A DNA stretch of 64,000 nt from Holophagales bacterium (lineage in GTDB: Bacteria; Acidobacteriota; Thermoanaerobaculia; Multivoradales; Multivoraceae), in contig VXSP01000022.1 in assembly GCA_009837885.1 (NCBI GenBank), forward strand, positions 1 to 64,000, written 5' to 3'. Both the position numbers and the translations under genes were made by a program. Below are positions 1 through 8,156 of this stretch, in pieces. How positions within the stretch are numbered: position 1 is the first letter of the stretch; each line of letters starts with the position of its first letter. The notes beneath the pieces were generated by a model. It did no database searches, had not been told where the DNA came from, and saw only the letters and a list, made by a program, of their open reading frames with translations.

Positions 1-2554
1 CGGTGAACGCCGCCGCCGTGCCCTCCGTCACCGCCGAACCGCCCGTGATCGTGATTGTCGGACCCGAAGTGCTCTTCGTGCGGATGTACGTCCAACTGCT
101 CGACGCGCCCGAATTGGGCCGGAACGCGATCCAGTAGTCGGTCTCGGCGGTCATGGAGGGAGCGCTAGGCCCCGACGAGGTCTGGTTGACCGTCTTCGTA
201 CCTCCGGCAGTCGGAGTGAAATCCATCGTGTTCCCGACCTCGTCGGCGGTACGTACGTTTCGGGCCAGGCCGTCCGACGTGCAGAGATAGAAACGGCCCT
301 CCCCGCCGGACGGAAGGGAAGCGGCGAACGTGACCGTCACGGACGATGTGGTCGAAGTGACGCCACTGAACCACGCGGCGTCGGCGCCCGTGCCGCAGCC
401 GGACGGCGCCGCAACGCTTGGCAGGGGGTTTGGAGTGCCGTGCAGGGAGATCACCAGGGAATCGGTGCCGACGGAACCCCAGGTGGTGGTGTTCCAGAAC
501 CGCTCCCTGCCGCCGTTCCCGATGCTCCAGCCTGCCGCTCCGCCGGAATCCTCTGGGTCGTCGTCCGTCCATTTCCTCACCCACTGAGAAGTTGACGAAC
601 TCTGGTTCGCGGTGATGTCGAACACCAGCCAGTAGGTCGTACTGGCCTCCAGGTCGATGGAACCACCGGCGAAGTGCCGGGCGAGCCCGAACGAGCTCGG
701 CCAGGCCGCCGGGTTGGTCAGCGTGCCCAGGCTGGTGCCCGGGCTGTTGGAGGAGTCCGAGTGGATGCTGGCGGTGTAGGTCGGCGCGGTGCCGCTGCCG
801 CCCTGCATGCGGATGTCCGCGCGGGTCAGCTTGTAGCCGGAGGCGTTGCTGCCGGTGGTGAACGACTGCGCCCAGTCGGTTCGGGCCGATACATTCCCAT
901 CGTTGAGTGTCTGCGAGGCGTTGCCGACCAGCTTGGGCGCGAGCGGATAGCCGTGGATGGCGATCATCATGTTGTTGTTGTTGGTAGTAGGACTGGCCCA
1001 GCTAGTCGCGGTGAGAGCCCTCCGCAGGCGAGAGTCCGCGATGCTCCAGCCCGTCGCCGCGCCCGTATCCTCTGCGTCCGACGCTGTCTGGTACACATCG
1101 TCGGTACTCACGGTTGAGACGTCGAAGACCGCGAAATAGGTCGTGTTGGCGGCCAGCAGGATGCCGTCGCCGGGCGCCGTGAACTCGGCGAGGCCGTCGC
1201 TGGGCAGGCTGGCCGGGTCCGTCAGAGTGGCCACAACGGCGCCCGGATTGCCTGACGAATCCTGACGGATCTCCGCAACGAGGTTTGCGAGGGTGATGGG
1301 GCTCGTACCGTCGCGCTTGAACTTCCAGTCCACGCGGGTCAGGACGTAGCCCCCGGAGTTGCTGCCCGTGGTGAACGCCTGAGCGATATCGGCGGCAGCG
1401 TTGATGTTGGTAGCGGTCTGCCCGGTGGTGCTGACCAGCGGCGGCGCCTCAGAGCCGCGGACGGAGATCCGCGTGGAATTGCTGTCGGTCGTCCAACCAC
1501 CGGTGGTGTAGTTGAAACGCCAGAGGGAGGTGTCCGCGATGCTCCAGTCGGACTCTGAAGTCGAATCCTGGGCGTCCGAGGCAGTTCGCGTGAATGAGGT
1601 GTTGAGGTTGCCTGAGCTGACGTCGACCAACACGAAGTACGTGGTGTTGGCCCTCAAGGCGATACCACCTTCAGGCGCGGAGTACGTGACGATGCCATTG
1701 CCGGCGGGCAGGCTGGCCGGATTTGTCAGCGTGCCGACGCTGGCGCCAGGACTGCCAGCCGAGTCCGAGCGGATGCTCACGCTGTAGACCGGTGGCGATG
1801 TTGCGATACTGTTGGCTTGGACGTCCACGCGGGTCAGCCTGTAGCCACTCGCATTGCTGCCCGTCGTGAACGCCTGGGCGAAGTCTGTGGTGAAGGCACT
1901 CGTGCCGGGCACCTCAACCTGCTGGAGGTTGCTCACGAGCCTGGGCGGGGCGACGTAGCCGTGAAGGGCGATCATCAGGGAATCGTTGTCGGTGGTGGAG
2001 CCGGTCCAGTCTGTGCTGTCTCGAGACCTTGTGCGGTAAGAGTCAGCGATGCTCCAGCCCGTCGCCGCGCCCGTATCCTCTCCGTCCGACGTTGTCTCGT
2101 GCAGTTGGTCAGTACTCGAAGCTGAGACGTTTAAGCCTGCGAAATAGGTCCTGTTGGGGGCCAGCTCGATACCGCCGCCGGGCACCGTGAACTGGGCGAG
2201 GCCGTCGCTGGGCAGGCTGGCCGGATCCACCAGATTGGTCACAGCGTTGTGCGGAGTACCTGACGATTCCTCAGAGATCCACCCGTTGATGTTCGCAAGG
2301 GTGATGGGGGTCGTACCGTCGCGCTTGAATTTCCAGTCCACGCGGGTCAGGACGTAGCCGTTGGGGTTGCTGCCGGTGGTGAATGCCTGAGCGTAGATGA
2401 CGTTGAGGAGTGTGGTTGTAGCGGTCTGCCCGGTGTTGCTCACGAACTTGGCCGAGGTCTGCGCCGGCGCGGACGCGGCCAGCAGGGCGAGGGCGAGCGG
2501 GAAAGCCACCCATGGAAGAAGTACCCGCAACTCGGAGAACCGCACGCGCCTCAT
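1..2554 (-). CDS. large secreted repeat protein, N-terminal 851 residues (3' end beyond window)
   Basis: The reading frame stays open from ATG 2554-2552 to the left edge, so the C-terminus is missing. The start is followed by basic residues (MRRVRF), a hydrophobic core (VAFPLALALLAAS) and an APAQ signal-peptidase-like site, so the product is exported. Then come four repeats of about 167 residues (roughly nt 2470-1955, 1954-1450, 1449-935 and 934-440). Each opens with a VSN..QT segment, has QAFTTGSN or a close variant, and closes with GWSI followed by a strand ending in IALHG or similar. A fibronectin-III-like segment follows (about nt 435-55), then the start of a Calx-beta/cadherin-like domain (GGSAVTEGTAAAF). 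Repeat modules like these occur in large bacterial surface proteins, so adhesion or matrix binding is inferred. No anchor is visible. No Shine-Dalgarno sequence is obvious before the start. Confidence 0.8.
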   Translation of the reverse strand, partial: MRRVRFSELRVLLPWVAFPLALALLAASAPAQTSAKFVSNTGQTATTTLLNVIYAQAFTTGSNPNGYVLTRVDWKFKRDGTTPITLANINGWISEESSGTPHNAVTNLVDPASLPSDGLAQFTVPGGGIELAPNRTYFAGLNVSASSTDQLHETTSDGEDTGAATGWSIADSYRTRSRDSTDWTGSTTDNDSLMIALHGYVAPPRLVSNLQQVEVPGTSAFTTDFAQAFTTGSNASGYRLTRVDVQANSIATSPPVYSVSIRSDSAGSPGASVGTLTNPASLPAGNGIVTYSAPEGGIALRANTTYFVLVDVSSGNLNTSFTRTASDAQDSTSESDWSIADTSLWRFNYTTGGWTTDSNSTRISVRGSEAPPLVSTTGQTATNINAAADIAQAFTTGSNSGGYVLTRVDWKFKRDGTSPITLANLVAEIRQDSSGNPGAVVATLTDPASLPSDGLAEFTAPGDGILLAANTTYFAVFDVSTVSTDDVYQTASDAEDTGAATGWSIADSRLRRALTATSWASPTTNNNNMMIAIHGYPLAPKLVGNASQTLNDGNVSARTDWAQSFTTGSNASGYKLTRADIRMQGGSGTAPTYTASIHSDSSNSPGTSLGTLTNPAAWPSSFGLARHFAGGSIDLEASTTYWLVFDITANQSSSTSQWVRKWTDDDPEDSGGAAGWSIGNGGRERFWNTTTWGSVGTDSLVISLHGTPNPLPSVAAPSGCGTGADAAWFSGVTSTTSSVTVTFAASLPSGGEGRFYLCTSDGLARNVRTADEVGNTMDFTPTAGGTKTVNQTSSGPSAPSMTAETDYWIAFRPNSGASSSWTYIRTKSTSGPTITITGGSAVTEGTAAAFT

Positions 2555-2722
2555 GGGTGCTCATTACACAAGGAAAGGGCGAGGACGTCATATCCCGTTT
2601 TGTAGGTCCACAAGGGCATGATTCCGCCCGACACTCGCCGCTGCAGGCGCCCACCGCCAGGCCAGCGACGCGGCCACCGTGGATCAGCCGGCCGGGCTTC
2701 CTGTGAAGCCGCGGTCTTTCGC

Positions 2723-2728
2723 TAGCAT
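2723..2728 (+). promoter_or_regulatory. -10-like box upstream of glnE
   Basis: TAGCAT lies 46 nt before the chosen glnE start, matching the TA[CG]NNT boxes seen before many genes here. The -35 region is weak. Inferred from pattern only. Confidence 0.35.
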
Positions 2729-2774
2729 CCTGTCTCCGCCGCTGTGGGCGGGCCAGCGACGAGGAGGAGCCGCC

Positions 2775-5700
2775 GTGAACTCGCGCCTTGGGCAAGCGAT
2801 CGAGGCCTTCGCGGCCATGGACATCGAGGACGCCGAGGATCCGCGGGAGACCCTCGCCCTCTCGCAGCGCGACATCCTGCGCGAGTACGCGCCGGCCTAC
2901 GCCCGGTGGCTGGACGCGCATCCGGAGGCGGACGAGGGGCTGTTTCCCGTCGAGCAGGAGCCGGTGGACGAGCAGCGCGAGCGCATGGCCGCGCTCCGGC
3001 CGGCGCCCGACGAGGACGTCCGCCGCTGGCTCCGCGTCCTTCGGTATCGCGAGCTGATCCGGGTCGCGGTCGCCGACTTCAGCGGCCTCGACGACTTCGC
3101 CGCGACGACGCAGAAGATCTCCCAGGTCGCGGATGTCTGCGTCCAGCGGGCGCTCGATGCGACCGGCCTCGACAAGGAACCGTTCGCGGTGATCGCGATG
3201 GGCAAGTGGGGCGGGCTGGAGGTGAACTACAGCTCGGACATCGACGCCCTGTTCGTTGCCTCGGACGATGTCGACCAGGAAGCCCTGCACCGCTTGCAGC
3301 GGCAGGCGCCGCAGTTCATTCGCCTGATCTCCGACAACACGGGCGACGGTTTCGTCTTCCGCGTGGACATGCGCCTGCGCCCCGAGGGGAAGATGGGTCC
3401 CCTGGTGCGGACGGTGGGGCAGTACCTCCGCTTCTACGAGCGCTACGGCATGAACTGGACGTTCCAGGCCCTGATCAAGGCGCGCTTCGCCGGCGGCGAC
3501 GCGGCCGCGGCGAAGGCGCTGATCGACGGTACGCGGCGCTTCGTTTTCGACCCGAACAGATCGCCCGAGACCTTGCTGCGCGAGGTCTTCGAGATGAAGC
3601 AGATGATCGAGAAGTCGCTCCGCTCCAAGGGTACGGAGGTCGGCAACGTGAAGCTCGGCGCCGGCAGCATCCGCGACATCGAGTTCATCGTCCAACTGCT
3701 GCAGCTCTACCACGGCGCCTCCAACAAGAGCCTGCGCTCGCCGAACACCCTGCGCGCCATGTCCCGGCTGCGGGCGCACCGCGTCATCACGAAGGAGGAG
3801 TACGACCGGCTGCGCGAGGCCTACATCTTCCTGCGGGTCGTCGAGCACGTGTTGCAGTTGGAACGCGACCTGCCGGTACGCCAGCTTCCGCGCGAGCCGA
3901 AGCAGTGGGCGACGTTCCAGTGGCGGGTGGCCTTCGCCCTGCGCCAGCCGCTCGACACCCTCGATCTGGGCGGCCGCTACGAAGAGACTGCGGCCGAAGT
4001 GCGGCGCATCTTTGGCGAGTTCTTCGACGAGACGATCGACTTTCTGGAACGTAAGCACCAGGTGCGGGAACGGTGCCCGGACCTGCCGGCGGAACTCATC
4101 GACGAGCACTTTCGGCGCCTCGAGAGCGCCTACTTTCTCGCTCACCCGGTGGAGGAGGTTGCGCGCCACGTGAAGCTGATCCACGAACTGGGCGGCGAGC
4201 GACTGTGCCGGGTCGACGTCCGGCACGTCGGTTCGACTCGCCGGGTGACGGTAGTCGCCAACGACTACCAGGGAGAGTTCGCCAAGATCTGCGGTCTGCT
4301 CGCGGCCTACGGTCAGTCGATCCTGAGCGGCAGTTCCTACACCTACCAGGACGCGGGCGACATGGAGTTTTACCGGCGGGCTGGAAGGGCGGAGCGGCGT
4401 CGTTCGCCGCGGCGGCGTGGTCGGCGTGGTCGTCAGAGTCATGGCAAGGATCGGGGGTCGCGTCCCTCGCACCATGGCCCGACGCGCATCGTGTACTCCG
4501 CGGAAGTTCAGCCTGCGCCGGCCCACGCTTCCCGCGTCTTCTCGTGGACCGACTTCGAGCGGGACCTGAACCGGCTTCTCGGCCTGCTGGCCGAGGGAGA
4601 CGCGCAGCGCGCCAACGAGGAACTGACCCTTCGCGTGATGGAGGCGGCCCGCCTGACCGATCCGGACGTCGATGCGGAACAGGTCATGCCTCCCATCTCG
4701 ATCTCGGTCGACAACGAGTCGGACGAGCACTGCACGGTTCTCGAGATCCGAAGTCCCGACAGCTTCATGTTCCTCTTCGAGTTCGCCAACGTCCTCTCGA
4801 CCCGGGACTACTGGATCGACAAGGTGGAGTTCGACACGGTCGACGGCGAAGTCCGCGACCGCCTGTTCGTCACCACGCGGAGCGGCGGGAAGATCGAGGA
4901 CCGCCTCGGCGTCGACCATCTCCGACTCACGGTGACGCTGATGAAGCAGTTCGCGCGGCGGCTGGCGGTGGCGCCGAACCCGCAGCTCGCCCTGCGGCAG
5001 TTCGGGGCGCTGATCGACGCGGCCTGCAAGCAGGTCGCCGATCCGACGCAGGCTCTGGCGTCGTCGCTGGATGAGCTGGCGCGCGTATTGGGCGCCGGCA
5101 CGTATCTCTGGGAGGAGTTCCTGCGCCGGCAGCACGAGAACCTGATGCCGCTGCTCGAAGGCATGGCCGACCTCGACCTGGGCGCCGGTCGAGAGGATCT
5201 GGAGCGCCGCCTCGATGCCGCGCTCGAAGCAGAAGACACGCCGGGCGAGGCCCTCAACCGCTTCAAGGACGACGAGATCGGGCGGATCGACATGCGGCAC
5301 CTGACGCGACGCATCAAGCGCTTCAGCGACTTCGGCGAAGAGCTCTCGACGCTCTCCGATGTCGTGCTCGCGCGGGCGGCGGCCGAAGCCGTTGGGGAGA
5401 CGGCCGGCGACGGAGCCGAGCCTGGGGCCTGGTGCCTGTGCGCGCTCGGGAAGTGGGGCGGACGCGATTTGGGGTACGCGTCGGACATCGAGTTGATGTT
5501 CGTCTGGGACACCGAACGGTCGCGGCTCGCTGACGGCGGCGAGTTCTACGAGCGGGCGGCGCAGCGGCTGGCGCGGTTGATCCGCGCCAAGCGCGACGGG
5601 ATCTTCGAGCTCGACTGGCGGCTGCGGCCGGGCGGTGCTTCGTCGCCGCTTGCCGCCTCGTTTCAGCGCTTCGTCTCGTACTACAGCTTCGACGGCGAAG

Positions 5701-6272
5701 CCGACCCGTATGAACGTCAGGCGCTCGTGCGGCTTCGCACCGTTGCCGGCAATCCTGACCTGGCCGCCCGACTGGAGGCGCACCGCCAGCAGTTCGTCTT
5801 CGATCCGCGTCCGCACGACGTCGCGCGGATCCGGCATCTCAGGAACCGCCAACGGTCGGAACTCACAACGCGCGGCACGACGAACGCCAAGTTCAGCGCC
5901 GGCGGCCTGCTCGACGCAGAGTACTTCGTCCAGGTGCGGCAGATCGCGTCCGGCGCCGGCGACCCGGAGGTGCGGCAGACGAACACCCTCGACGCGGTTC
6001 ACGCGCTCCACGAGCGCGGCCACCTGTCGGCTGACGAGTTCGAGCAGATCAGCGACGGTTACCGTCTCCTGCGCGCAGTGATCAACTGCCTGCGCATCGT
6101 CCGCGGACACAGCAAGGACCTCGTGATTCCCCCGGCGGATACGAGGGAGTTCCGCTTCCTGGCACGTCGGCTGCACAGTCTCGGACAGCTGCCTGACGAG
6201 GAGGGCGCCTGGGACCGGATCGCGGAACACATGCGGTCGCTCGAGCGTCTCTTCGACGGGCTGTCGGACTGA
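2775..6272 (+). CDS. glnE: GlnE-like glutamine synthetase adenylyltransferase with two internal ACT domains
   Basis: The product (1165 aa) resembles the bifunctional enzyme that adds AMP to, and removes it from, glutamine synthetase, but is about 200 residues longer than the E. coli enzyme (about 945 aa). The N-terminal nucleotidyltransferase motif GKWGG..NYSSDID is at residues 143-157, followed by the GlnE hallmarks MRLRPEGKMG and GSIRDIEFIVQLLQLYHG. The middle holds an ACT domain (about 485-575, RRVTVVANDYQGEFAKICG...) interrupted by an Arg-rich insert, and a second ACT domain (about 640-715, TVLEIRSPDSFMFLFEF...). Both resemble the C-terminal pair of GlnD. The C-terminal nucleotidyltransferase motif is GKWGGRDLGYASDIE (ending at 906), with Glu where the second metal Asp is normal. 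GTG 2775 was chosen because GAGGAGG lies just upstream; an in-frame GTG at 2679 has no such site. The convergent glnB and amtB next door support a role in nitrogen control. Confidence 0.85.
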   Translation: MNSRLGQAIEAFAAMDIEDAEDPRETLALSQRDILREYAPAYARWLDAHPEADEGLFPVEQEPVDEQRERMAALRPAPDEDVRRWLRVLRYRELIRVAVADFSGLDDFAATTQKISQVADVCVQRALDATGLDKEPFAVIAMGKWGGLEVNYSSDIDALFVASDDVDQEALHRLQRQAPQFIRLISDNTGDGFVFRVDMRLRPEGKMGPLVRTVGQYLRFYERYGMNWTFQALIKARFAGGDAAAAKALIDGTRRFVFDPNRSPETLLREVFEMKQMIEKSLRSKGTEVGNVKLGAGSIRDIEFIVQLLQLYHGASNKSLRSPNTLRAMSRLRAHRVITKEEYDRLREAYIFLRVVEHVLQLERDLPVRQLPREPKQWATFQWRVAFALRQPLDTLDLGGRYEETAAEVRRIFGEFFDETIDFLERKHQVRERCPDLPAELIDEHFRRLESAYFLAHPVEEVARHVKLIHELGGERLCRVDVRHVGSTRRVTVVANDYQGEFAKICGLLAAYGQSILSGSSYTYQDAGDMEFYRRAGRAERRRSPRRRGRRGRQSHGKDRGSRPSHHGPTRIVYSAEVQPAPAHASRVFSWTDFERDLNRLLGLLAEGDAQRANEELTLRVMEAARLTDPDVDAEQVMPPISISVDNESDEHCTVLEIRSPDSFMFLFEFANVLSTRDYWIDKVEFDTVDGEVRDRLFVTTRSGGKIEDRLGVDHLRLTVTLMKQFARRLAVAPNPQLALRQFGALIDAACKQVADPTQALASSLDELARVLGAGTYLWEEFLRRQHENLMPLLEGMADLDLGAGREDLERRLDAALEAEDTPGEALNRFKDDEIGRIDMRHLTRRIKRFSDFGEELSTLSDVVLARAAAEAVGETAGDGAEPGAWCLCALGKWGGRDLGYASDIELMFVWDTERSRLADGGEFYERAAQRLARLIRAKRDGIFELDWRLRPGGASSPLAASFQRFVSYYSFDGEADPYERQALVRLRTVAGNPDLAARLEAHRQQFVFDPRPHDVARIRHLRNRQRSELTTRGTTNAKFSAGGLLDAEYFVQVRQIASGAGDPEVRQTNTLDAVHALHERGHLSADEFEQISDGYRLLRAVINCLRIVRGHSKDLVIPPADTREFRFLARRLHSLGQLPDEEGAWDRIAEHMRSLERLFDGLSD

Positions 6273-6339
6273 GCGGCCGCCAAAGCGGAGCCGGCCTGGC
6301 GGCCGGCGCGTATCTCTGGCCGCCTGCGGCGCGCGTCTA

Positions 6340-6383
6340 CCGGGGGTCAGAAGACCCCCGGCTACGGACCCCGCGCACCCAGG
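6340..6383 (-). repeat. hairpin with GGTGC head, possibly related to the dispersed REP-like family
   Basis: Read on the minus strand, a CCTGGGTGCGCG head (6383-6372) is followed by a perfect 9-bp stem CCGGGGGTC/GACCCCCGG with a 4-nt loop (6340-6361). The head matches the other repeats of this window but the palindrome differs. It lies downstream of glnE and could also act at the glnE mRNA 3' end, although no T-tract follows. Confidence 0.35.
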
Positions 6384-6390
6384 GGAAGCC

Positions 6391-6433
6391 AAACGAAGAA
6401 ACGCGCCGTGGGAGCAGGAACTCCCACGGCGCG
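6391..6433 (-). terminator. Rho-independent terminator of glnB
   Basis: On the minus strand a perfect 13-bp stem (CGCGCCGTGGGAG / CTCCCACGGCGCG) with a 6-nt loop is followed by TTTCTTCGTTT. It begins 22 nt past the glnB stop codon and is the clearest intrinsic terminator in the window. Confidence 0.8.
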
Positions 6434-6455: not shown

Positions 6456-6797
6456 CTACCCGATCGCCACGTTTCCCGTCTCGCCCGTGCGGATCCGGAT
6501 CGTCTCTTCTAGCGGCATCACGAAGATCTTTCCGTCGCCGACCCGGCCGGTCTTGCCGCCCCTCGTGATCGCGTCGATCACGATGTCGACGTAGTCGTCG
6601 TTCACCGCGATCTCGATCTTCAGCTTGCGCAGCAGAGCGCCCGCTTCCTTGTGGCCGCGATAGATCTCGGAGACGCCCCGCTGGCGGCCGCGCCCCATCA
6701 CGTTGGAGACGGTCAGGAGGTGAATCTCCTTCTCTTCCAGGAGATCGAGGACCTCCTGCATCCGGTCGGGCTGAACGATTGCCACGATGTACTTCAT
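6456..6797 (-). CDS. glnB: PII nitrogen regulatory protein lacking the Tyr51 modification site
   Basis: This 113-aa protein has the usual PII length and fold signatures: MKYIVAIVQP at the N-terminus, the T-loop entry GRGRQRGVSEIYRG, and the ATP-binding signature TGRVGDGKIFVMPLEE with RIRTGE after it. PII trimers bind ATP, ADP and 2-oxoglutarate and, when encoded beside amtB, plug the ammonium channel (GlnK role). Aligned to E. coli GlnB, Tyr46 is kept, but residues 49-51 read His-Lys-Glu instead of Ala-Glu-Tyr. The tyrosine modified by GlnD (or adenylylated in actinobacteria) is therefore absent, and so is the cyanobacterial Ser49. The gene follows amtB by 18 nt on the same strand and ends in a strong terminator. 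Confidence 0.95.
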   Translation of the reverse strand: MKYIVAIVQPDRMQEVLDLLEEKEIHLLTVSNVMGRGRQRGVSEIYRGHKEAGALLRKLKIEIAVNDDYVDIVIDAITRGGKTGRVGDGKIFVMPLEETIRIRTGETGNVAIG

Positions 6798-6815: not shown

Positions 6816-8156
6816 CTAGTCAACCAGGGTGTAGGCGTTTTCGCGGTGGTCGGTGAGGTCGAGACCGATCCGCTCCTCGTCGTCGCTGACGCGGAGGCCA
6901 ACGATCAGGTCGACGATCTTGAGCAGGATGAAGGAAACGACGGCGGCCCAGACGATGGTGTAGGCGACGGCCTTGAGCTGAATCAGGACCTGTCCGGCAT
7001 TGCCGTAGAAGAGGCCGTTCGCGTCGTTGCCGGGAACCACGTCGGTGGCCCAGAGGCCGGCCGCGACCGCGCCCCACATGCCGGCGACTCCGTGGACGCC
7101 GAAGACGTCCAGCGAGTCGTCGTAGCCGAGCTTCGACTTCAGCCAGGTGACCGCCAGGTAGGCGAACACGGAAGCGCCGGCGCCGACGCCGATCGCCCCG
7201 ATGGCGCTGACCGAGCCGCATGCCGGCGTGATCGCCACGAGTCCGGCGACGGCGCCGGTGATGACGCCCAGAAGCGTCGGCTTAGAGTCGCGGATCCAGT
7301 CGATCAGACCCCAGGCGGCGGCGGCAGTGGCCGTGGCGACCTGGGTGACGACGAAGGCATTGGCCGCCGAGCCGTTCGCCGCCACCGCGCTGCCGGCGTT
7401 GAAGCCGAACCACCCGAACCAGAGCAGTCCCGTGCCGAGAACGGCAAACGGCAGGTTGTGGGGCGGGGAGGTATGCACGGGATAGTCGCGCCGCCGGCCG
7501 AGGACCATCGCCGCGACCAGGGCCGAAACGCCGGCGTTGATGTGGACGACGGTGCCGCCCGCGAAGTCGAGCGCGCCGTCGCCGCCGAGGCCGAAGAAGC
7601 CCTCCGAACCGCCCCAGACCCAGTGACAGACCGGAGCGTAGACCACGAGCAGCCAGGCGCTCATGAACAGGCAGATGGCGCTGAACTTCATCCGTTCAGC
7701 GAATGCCCCGACCATGAGAGCGGGCGTGATGATCGCGAACATGCCCTGGAAGATCATGAACAGCGGCGCCGGGATGCCGGTGCCGTCCCAGGCGTCGTAG
7801 CCGAGGCCGCTCAGCAGGAAGTAGTCACCGCCGCCGATCACGCCGCCCAGGGCGTCGGAACCGAAGGCGAGGCTGAAGCCAACGACGACCCAGAGCACGG
7901 TCATGACGCCCATGCACAGGAAGCACTGCATGAGGATCGAGAGGACGTTCTTGCGGCGGACGAGACCGCCGTAGAAGAACGCCAGTCCCGGCGTCATCAG
8001 CAGCACCAGGGCGCTGGCGGTCAGCATCCATGCCGTGTCACCGGTGTCTACGCCGTCCTGGGCTGCCGCCGGCGAAGCGGCCAGCAGGGCCAGGAGCAGC
8101 GTCAGTCCCAGGGCCGGACCCAGACGAAACGTCCGGCCTCGCGTTCTGAAGCTCAT
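6816..8156 (-). CDS. amtB: AmtB-type ammonium transporter
   Basis: The 446-aa protein starts with a signal peptide (hydrophobic LGLTLLLALLAASPAAAQ) and continues into the roughly eleven helices of the Amt family. Family motifs include MLTASALVLLMTPGLAFFYGG, the two channel histidines in PVCHWVWGG and FGVHGVAGMWG, and FGFNAGSA. It would conduct ammonium across the inner membrane, gated by the PII protein encoded directly downstream (18-nt gap). A sigma-54-like promoter and two palindromes precede it. The cytoplasmic tail (RVSDDEERIGLDLTDHRENAY) matches the PII-contacting tail of Amt proteins. The copper amine oxidase gene upstream would supply ammonium from amines. Confidence 0.96.
   Translation of the reverse strand: MSFRTRGRTFRLGPALGLTLLLALLAASPAAAQDGVDTGDTAWMLTASALVLLMTPGLAFFYGGLVRRKNVLSILMQCFLCMGVMTVLWVVVGFSLAFGSDALGGVIGGGDYFLLSGLGYDAWDGTGIPAPLFMIFQGMFAIITPALMVGAFAERMKFSAICLFMSAWLLVVYAPVCHWVWGGSEGFFGLGGDGALDFAGGTVVHINAGVSALVAAMVLGRRRDYPVHTSPPHNLPFAVLGTGLLWFGWFGFNAGSAVAANGSAANAFVVTQVATATAAAAWGLIDWIRDSKPTLLGVITGAVAGLVAITPACGSVSAIGAIGVGAGASVFAYLAVTWLKSKLGYDDSLDVFGVHGVAGMWGAVAAGLWATDVVPGNDANGLFYGNAGQVLIQLKAVAYTIVWAAVVSFILLKIVDLIVGLRVSDDEERIGLDLTDHRENAYTLVD

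Follow-up and report, generated by a model that had tools for sequence, protein, structure and literature searches.

We describe a GlnE-type adenylyltransferase of glutamine synthetase (GS) in which a GlnD-type ACT module of about 310 residues lies between the two catalytic halves, an architecture that we designate GlnE-ACT. The gene was found in the first 64,000 nucleotides of contig VXSP01000022.1 of a Holophagales bacterium (assembly GCA_009837885.1), a stretch referred to here as the window. The most likely explanation, with a probability of roughly 0.6, is that a GlnD-derived sensor enables this GlnE to read glutamine directly, bypassing both GlnD and PII-UMP; we infer the ligand and the direction of the switch from sequence. 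The proposal of the initial annotation that a glutamine sensor is built into GlnE and short-circuits the cascade is thereby retained as the leading hypothesis, supported by the apparent lack of GlnD throughout the 21 genus genomes and by the loss of Tyr51 from PII.

The bicyclic GlnD-PII-GlnE cascade is a textbook example of signal transduction, and a natural version that joins the first sensor to the last enzyme and has lost the intermediates would offer a minimal system for testing what the cascade contributes. GlnE-ACT may also help to explain the control of GlnE in settings in which this enzyme is not governed by PII modification. E. coli GlnE binds glutamine and responds to it directly, in addition to receiving the signal through PII, so the short-circuit is a matter of degree, and what is new is chiefly the architecture and the lost relay, less the direct sensing of glutamine. 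A literature search found no paper on ACT domains in GlnE, which is not proof that none exists.

Gene organization and catalytic halves

The gene starts with a GTG codon that is kept across the genus, and a GAGGAG/AGGAGG-like ribosome site precedes it in most, not all, genus members. The features of the locus are as follows:

2762..2769, plus strand: Shine-Dalgarno sequence AGGAGGAG, 5 nt before the GTG start at 2775
2775..6272 (coding to 6269), plus strand: glnE-ACT gene, 1165 aa (ORF translation; homologs in 21/21 genus genomes)
2862..4025, plus strand: AT-N half, residues 30-417, with GlnE (PF03710) and GlnD_UR_UTase (PF08335) domains; putative deadenylylase half by homology (Pfam)
3201..3245, plus strand: nucleotidyltransferase (NT) motif 1, GKWGGLEVNYSSDID, residues 143-157, catalytic DxD retained (translation, alignment)
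4047..4214, plus strand: GlnD-type pre-ACT helices, residues 425-480 (HHalign to GlnD; helices in the model)
4236..4352, plus strand: first half of ACT1 (beta1-alpha1-beta2), residues 488-526, loop Gly at residue 500 (NCBIfam, model; omega 0-0.08)
4353..4472, plus strand: Arg-rich disordered loop inside ACT1, residues 527-566 (pLDDT < 50; omega 0.36-0.48; in-frame length variation)
4482..4592, plus strand: second half of ACT1 (beta3-alpha2), residues 570-606 (predicted model)
4692..4979, plus strand: ACT2, residues 640-735 (GlnD TIGR01693 758-836; model; omega 0.04-0.09)
4980..6269, plus strand: helical linker and AT-C half, residues 736-1165; putative adenylylase half by homology (Pfam, alignment, HHalign)
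5448..5492, plus strand: NT motif 2, GKWGGRDLGYASDIE, residues 892-906, DxE (translation, alignment)
6456..6797, minus strand: PII gene, 113 aa, the sole PII found in the genome; T-loop YRGHKEAGALL, with Glu at the Tyr51 position (sequence search, alignment)
6816..8156, minus strand: amtB ammonium transporter gene, immediately upstream of the PII gene with an 18-bp gap (named from translated sequence)

A Pfam scan of the 1165-aa protein returned two matches each to GlnE (247.5 bits against a gathering score of 24) and GlnD_UR_UTase (115.2 bits against 21), and residues 76-417 resemble the solved N domain of E. coli GlnE (1v4a, E 5e-44). Both GlnE nucleotidyltransferase motifs read in the initial annotation were confirmed, at residues 143-157 and 892-906, and all three NT carboxylates are present in each half (D, D, D in AT-N; D, E, D in AT-C, with Glu at the second position). 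The AT-C motif is SDIE, not SDLD, in all five GlnE-ACT lineages seen; E. coli has DxD. By homology, the protein is predicted to be a bifunctional GlnE-type adenylyltransferase/deadenylylase with both halves intact. Its scores fall below three NCBIfam GlnE equivalog cut-offs (PRK14109, 399.8 vs 625; PRK11072, 362.6 vs 487; PRK14108, 295.2 vs 724), and it therefore belongs only in the wider GlnE superfamily.

Two further reading frames were noted in this part of the window, both on the minus strand. A 1373-aa antisense frame (2271-6392) spans glnE-ACT and was taken as a high-GC shadow ORF. The other (2-2554) is a large, repetitive, secreted-type ORF with a signal-peptide-like start, open at the window edge, with repeat units of the form 'STTGQTAT...AQAFTTGSN'.

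The GlnD-type insert

The insert (residues about 425-735) is collinear with the C-terminus of GlnD, comprising the pre-ACT helices, ACT1 and ACT2, and a gap opens at its position when the protein is aligned with four GlnEs. A whole-protein NCBIfam scan matched residues 425-530 to GlnD 675-783 and residues 630-710 to GlnD ACT2. When the excised middle region was compared with 18,950 NCBIfam models, GlnD models were the only matches (best E 8.3e-16), and the same region of three relatives (L046, L047 and L102) gave GlnD matches throughout, with one stray non-GlnD match at E 0.07. HHalign aligned the middle region with a GlnD alignment over 234 collinear columns (GlnD alignment columns 680-917; probability 99%, E 3.6e-19). 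Reversed and column-shuffled GlnD controls (E 0.33 and 0.074, respectively) rule out a chance resemblance to ACT domains, and the value obtained against ordinary GlnE (E 0.15) rules out that the insert is the ordinary GlnE linker. The two GlnD-like ACT segments initially read between the catalytic halves are thus upheld by NCBIfam, HHalign and AlphaFold2. Pfam detects no ACT domain in the middle region at E<=10, so that routine annotation would miss the insert and label the protein an ordinary GlnE, and the protein does not reach the full-length GlnD model TIGR01693 (72.7 bits vs a cut-off of 519.4).

The AlphaFold2 model of the middle region contains two ACT-like alpha/beta units (mean pLDDT 74, pTM 0.76), the first of them broken by the Arg-rich disordered loop; the full-length model has a pTM of 0.49 and does not fix the relative placement of the domains. 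The Arg-rich stretch is not the product of a frameshift or an assembly error, since it is in frame and varies in length by whole codons in all relatives. Foldseek placed mycobacterial large glutamate dehydrogenase, through its ACT region, first among the structural neighbours of the middle region (Z about 9), with aspartate kinase, threonine deaminase and CASTOR1 also among the neighbours. Derivation of the insert from large glutamate dehydrogenase was suggested by Foldseek only and was rejected, every strong sequence match being to GlnD. A PDB sequence search with the middle region returned no relative, and no GlnD structure was found in the PDB for comparison, E. coli GlnD itself having no solved relative at E 0.01.

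ACT domains almost invariably have a glycine in the beta1-alpha1 loop. ACT1 has this glycine, at a position occupied by Tyr in E. coli GlnD; ACT2 has Met in its place (DSFMFLFEF), where the compared GlnDs retain the glycine. This arrangement is the reverse of that in E. coli GlnD, so that glutamine may be bound in a different way or the ligand may be another one. The ACT pair could accordingly be a true sensor of glutamate, another amino acid or 2-oxoglutarate, with GlnE responding to that ligand, and the loop residues, the glutamate dehydrogenase neighbour and the lack of a GlnD structure all leave room for such a sensor. We consider it rather unlikely, given that similarity to GlnD is found in all four lineages scanned and that a regulator of GS would logically take glutamine as its feedback ligand.

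Distribution of the architecture and of its signalling partners

The glnE-ACT gene occurs in 21/21 genomes of the genus, as a complete or near-complete single ORF in most and split or cut by contig ends in two. The close relatives with named records are Acidobacteriota MAGs with Thermoanaerobaculia or Holophagales labels, including Candidatus Multivorans thiocomprendens, and we read the genus as sponge-associated from the names of these records. The initial annotation had considered that this layout might be a standard form found alongside a normal GlnD. It is instead rare: among 396 Acidobacteriota genomes, the architecture was found in just 15, namely 14 of the genus and one from another family (G363, locus L102). 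Most of the remaining profile matches fell in ordinary GlnDs, ORFs of about 800-1000 aa, and many of these matches were paired and collinear (ACT1/ACT2). A contig scan also identified GlnE-ACT in a Verrucomicrobia-labelled MAG (L046), in MAG nzgw509 (L047) and in a Spirochaetes-labelled MAG (L048, partial), with 43-44% identity in the middle region; because the scan required matches to two exact 7-residue seeds, GlnE-ACT is probably more widespread than it shows. In a plasmid/chromid collection, 30 records had a GlnE match, all with <=56% query coverage, and no insert was seen. With the insert removed, GlnE-ACT lineages are 36-46% identical to one another and 23-31% identical to four ordinary GlnEs, and a nine-row tree unites them in a single group (95/95). 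This grouping is compatible with a single fusion followed by spread, although the sampling is too thin to establish it. In nzgw509, NrtABC/SsuABC-like ABC transporter genes follow GlnE-ACT (8.9-12.9 kb), a possible nitrogen-uptake neighbourhood.

A search for glnD elsewhere in the window's own genome (97.6% complete), a check raised with the initial annotation, supports the proposed reading: it returned only fragments of up to 27.6 bits. Full-length GlnD is likewise absent from the other 20 genus genomes; two Acidobacteriota control genomes (G125 and G263) gave E<1e-199. Those GlnE-ACT genomes that have named records are MAGs, so a gene missing from them cannot be taken as definitively absent. 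The modification site of PII is Tyr51 (PMC3612183). Every PII of the genus with a covered T-loop reads YRG[HN]KEAGALL, without Tyr51, and both control genomes keep Tyr51 in a PII beside GlnD. Type I GS keeps the adenylylation-type tyrosine as DIYDLSPEE in G000 and four genus members; elsewhere the motif reads DIYSLTPEE (G363), DLYDLAPEE (G415) and NIYELNEAE (G416), and in G417 the search gave no GS match.

Outside the genus, neither GlnD nor a Tyr51 PII was found in the Verrucomicrobia- and Spirochaetes-labelled MAGs, and G363 encodes a GlnD with both active sites degenerate (SSVG for SDxD, HV for HD), neither of its two aligned PIIs having Tyr51. Four of the five GlnE-ACT lineages are thus predicted to be without a working uridylylation arm. 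The fifth, nzgw509 (G416), has, in addition to GlnE-ACT, an intact GlnD with a PII beside it that retains Tyr51; the insert therefore does not always replace GlnD, and this lineage may represent the starting state before loss. The G363 GlnD (L121, G363:C40:38515-41049, minus strand) is a candidate pseudoenzyme that reads SSVGLTF for SDxDLLF and LLHVIGKV for LLHDIGKG, with an ACT tail that still aligns. In the same genome (G363:C1, about 332.3-337.1 kb), the GlnE-ACT gene (L102) adjoins a convergent type I GS gene (L155).

Across the genus, glnE-ACT neighbours the PII gene, and the two are convergent. This arrangement would suit an ACT pair acting as a docking or dimerization module that receives unmodified, 2-oxoglutarate/ATP-loaded PII or holds the oligomer together, binding no small ligand itself; the central region of ordinary GlnE also sits between the halves, and PII binds GlnE (PMC12409994). 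Such a role appears improbable, as PII and GlnE-ACT lie on separate contigs in other lineages and the GlnD origin of the insert would be left unexplained, together with the disappearance of GlnD and Tyr51.

Proposed glutamine sensing and comparison with known systems

In E. coli GlnE, deadenylylation is the task of the N-terminal half and adenylylation that of the C-terminal half, with the balance between them set by the binding of PII (PMC12409994). The ACT pair of GlnD is regarded as a glutamine sensor (PMC3173338). Under direct glutamine sensing, the GlnD C-terminus (pre-ACT helices, ACT1 and ACT2) would have been inserted at the site of the central regulatory region of ordinary GlnE. At high glutamine, binding to the ACT pair would favour the C-terminal half, and type I GS would be adenylylated at its conserved tyrosine and turned down; at low glutamine, the N-terminal half would remove AMP from GS. 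With the sensor placed between the two active sites, neither GlnD nor the PII-UMP messenger would be needed. The residual PII, without Tyr51 and in an operon with amtB, probably serves AmtB and 2-oxoglutarate/energy sensing, a role that we infer. The evidence leans slightly toward a one-protein circuit reached by a defined path, in which GlnE captured the GlnD sensor, GlnD then disappeared or its active sites degenerated, and the modifiable tyrosine of PII was lost. More than one lineage would have taken this path, such that glutamine would set GS adenylylation without a PII-modification cycle.

Between members of the genus, pairwise dN/dS lies at 0-0.08 in the first half of ACT1, at 0.04-0.09 in ACT2 and at 0.05-0.09 in AT-N. 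It reaches 0.12-0.17 in AT-C and 0.36-0.48 in the Arg-rich loop, which resembles a flexible tether. Purifying selection acts on the ACT cores as strongly as on AT-N and more strongly than on AT-C, and their low omega indicates that they are constrained as functional parts. That the insert is an evolutionary leftover of no regulatory role, with GlnE constitutive or using the ordinary direct glutamine effect, is highly improbable in light of this constraint and of the persistence of the module in five lineages, even though the loop inside ACT1 evolves fast.

GlnE-ACT shares with ordinary GlnE two homologous NT halves in the same order and with the same motifs, as well as a genome that encodes type I GS with an adenylylation-type tyrosine. 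It differs in the GlnD-type ACT module, in DxE for DxD in AT-C, in its sub-equivalog NCBIfam scores and in overall divergence, the window's protein being 24-29% identical to four ordinary GlnEs with the insert removed. The insert is collinear with the C-terminal third of GlnD (pre-ACT helices, ACT1 and ACT2) but lacks the HD (uridylyl-removing) domain, the NT halves are of GlnE type and no full-length GlnD model fits. Actinomycete GlnE is reported to be PII-independent and not controlled by GlnK (PMC3612183), and thus resembles the proposed system in adenylylating GS without control by PII modification; unlike it, the Nonomuraea GlnE (the sole actinomycete one aligned) has no insert, and actinomycete PII is modified at Tyr51 by GlnD (PMC3612183). 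Plant ACR11 (PMC3173338) likewise has a GlnD-type ACT pair outside GlnD, linked to enzymes of nitrogen assimilation, but it is a stand-alone chloroplast protein with no adenylyltransferase fusion. An unannotated stretch of Bradyrhizobium elkanii plasmid pS05J (L163:2501-2977), and of similar Bradyrhizobium plasmids, resembles the ACT pair of GlnD only (E. coli residues 705-860), and may represent either a free-standing ACT-ACT protein or the remnant of a gene.
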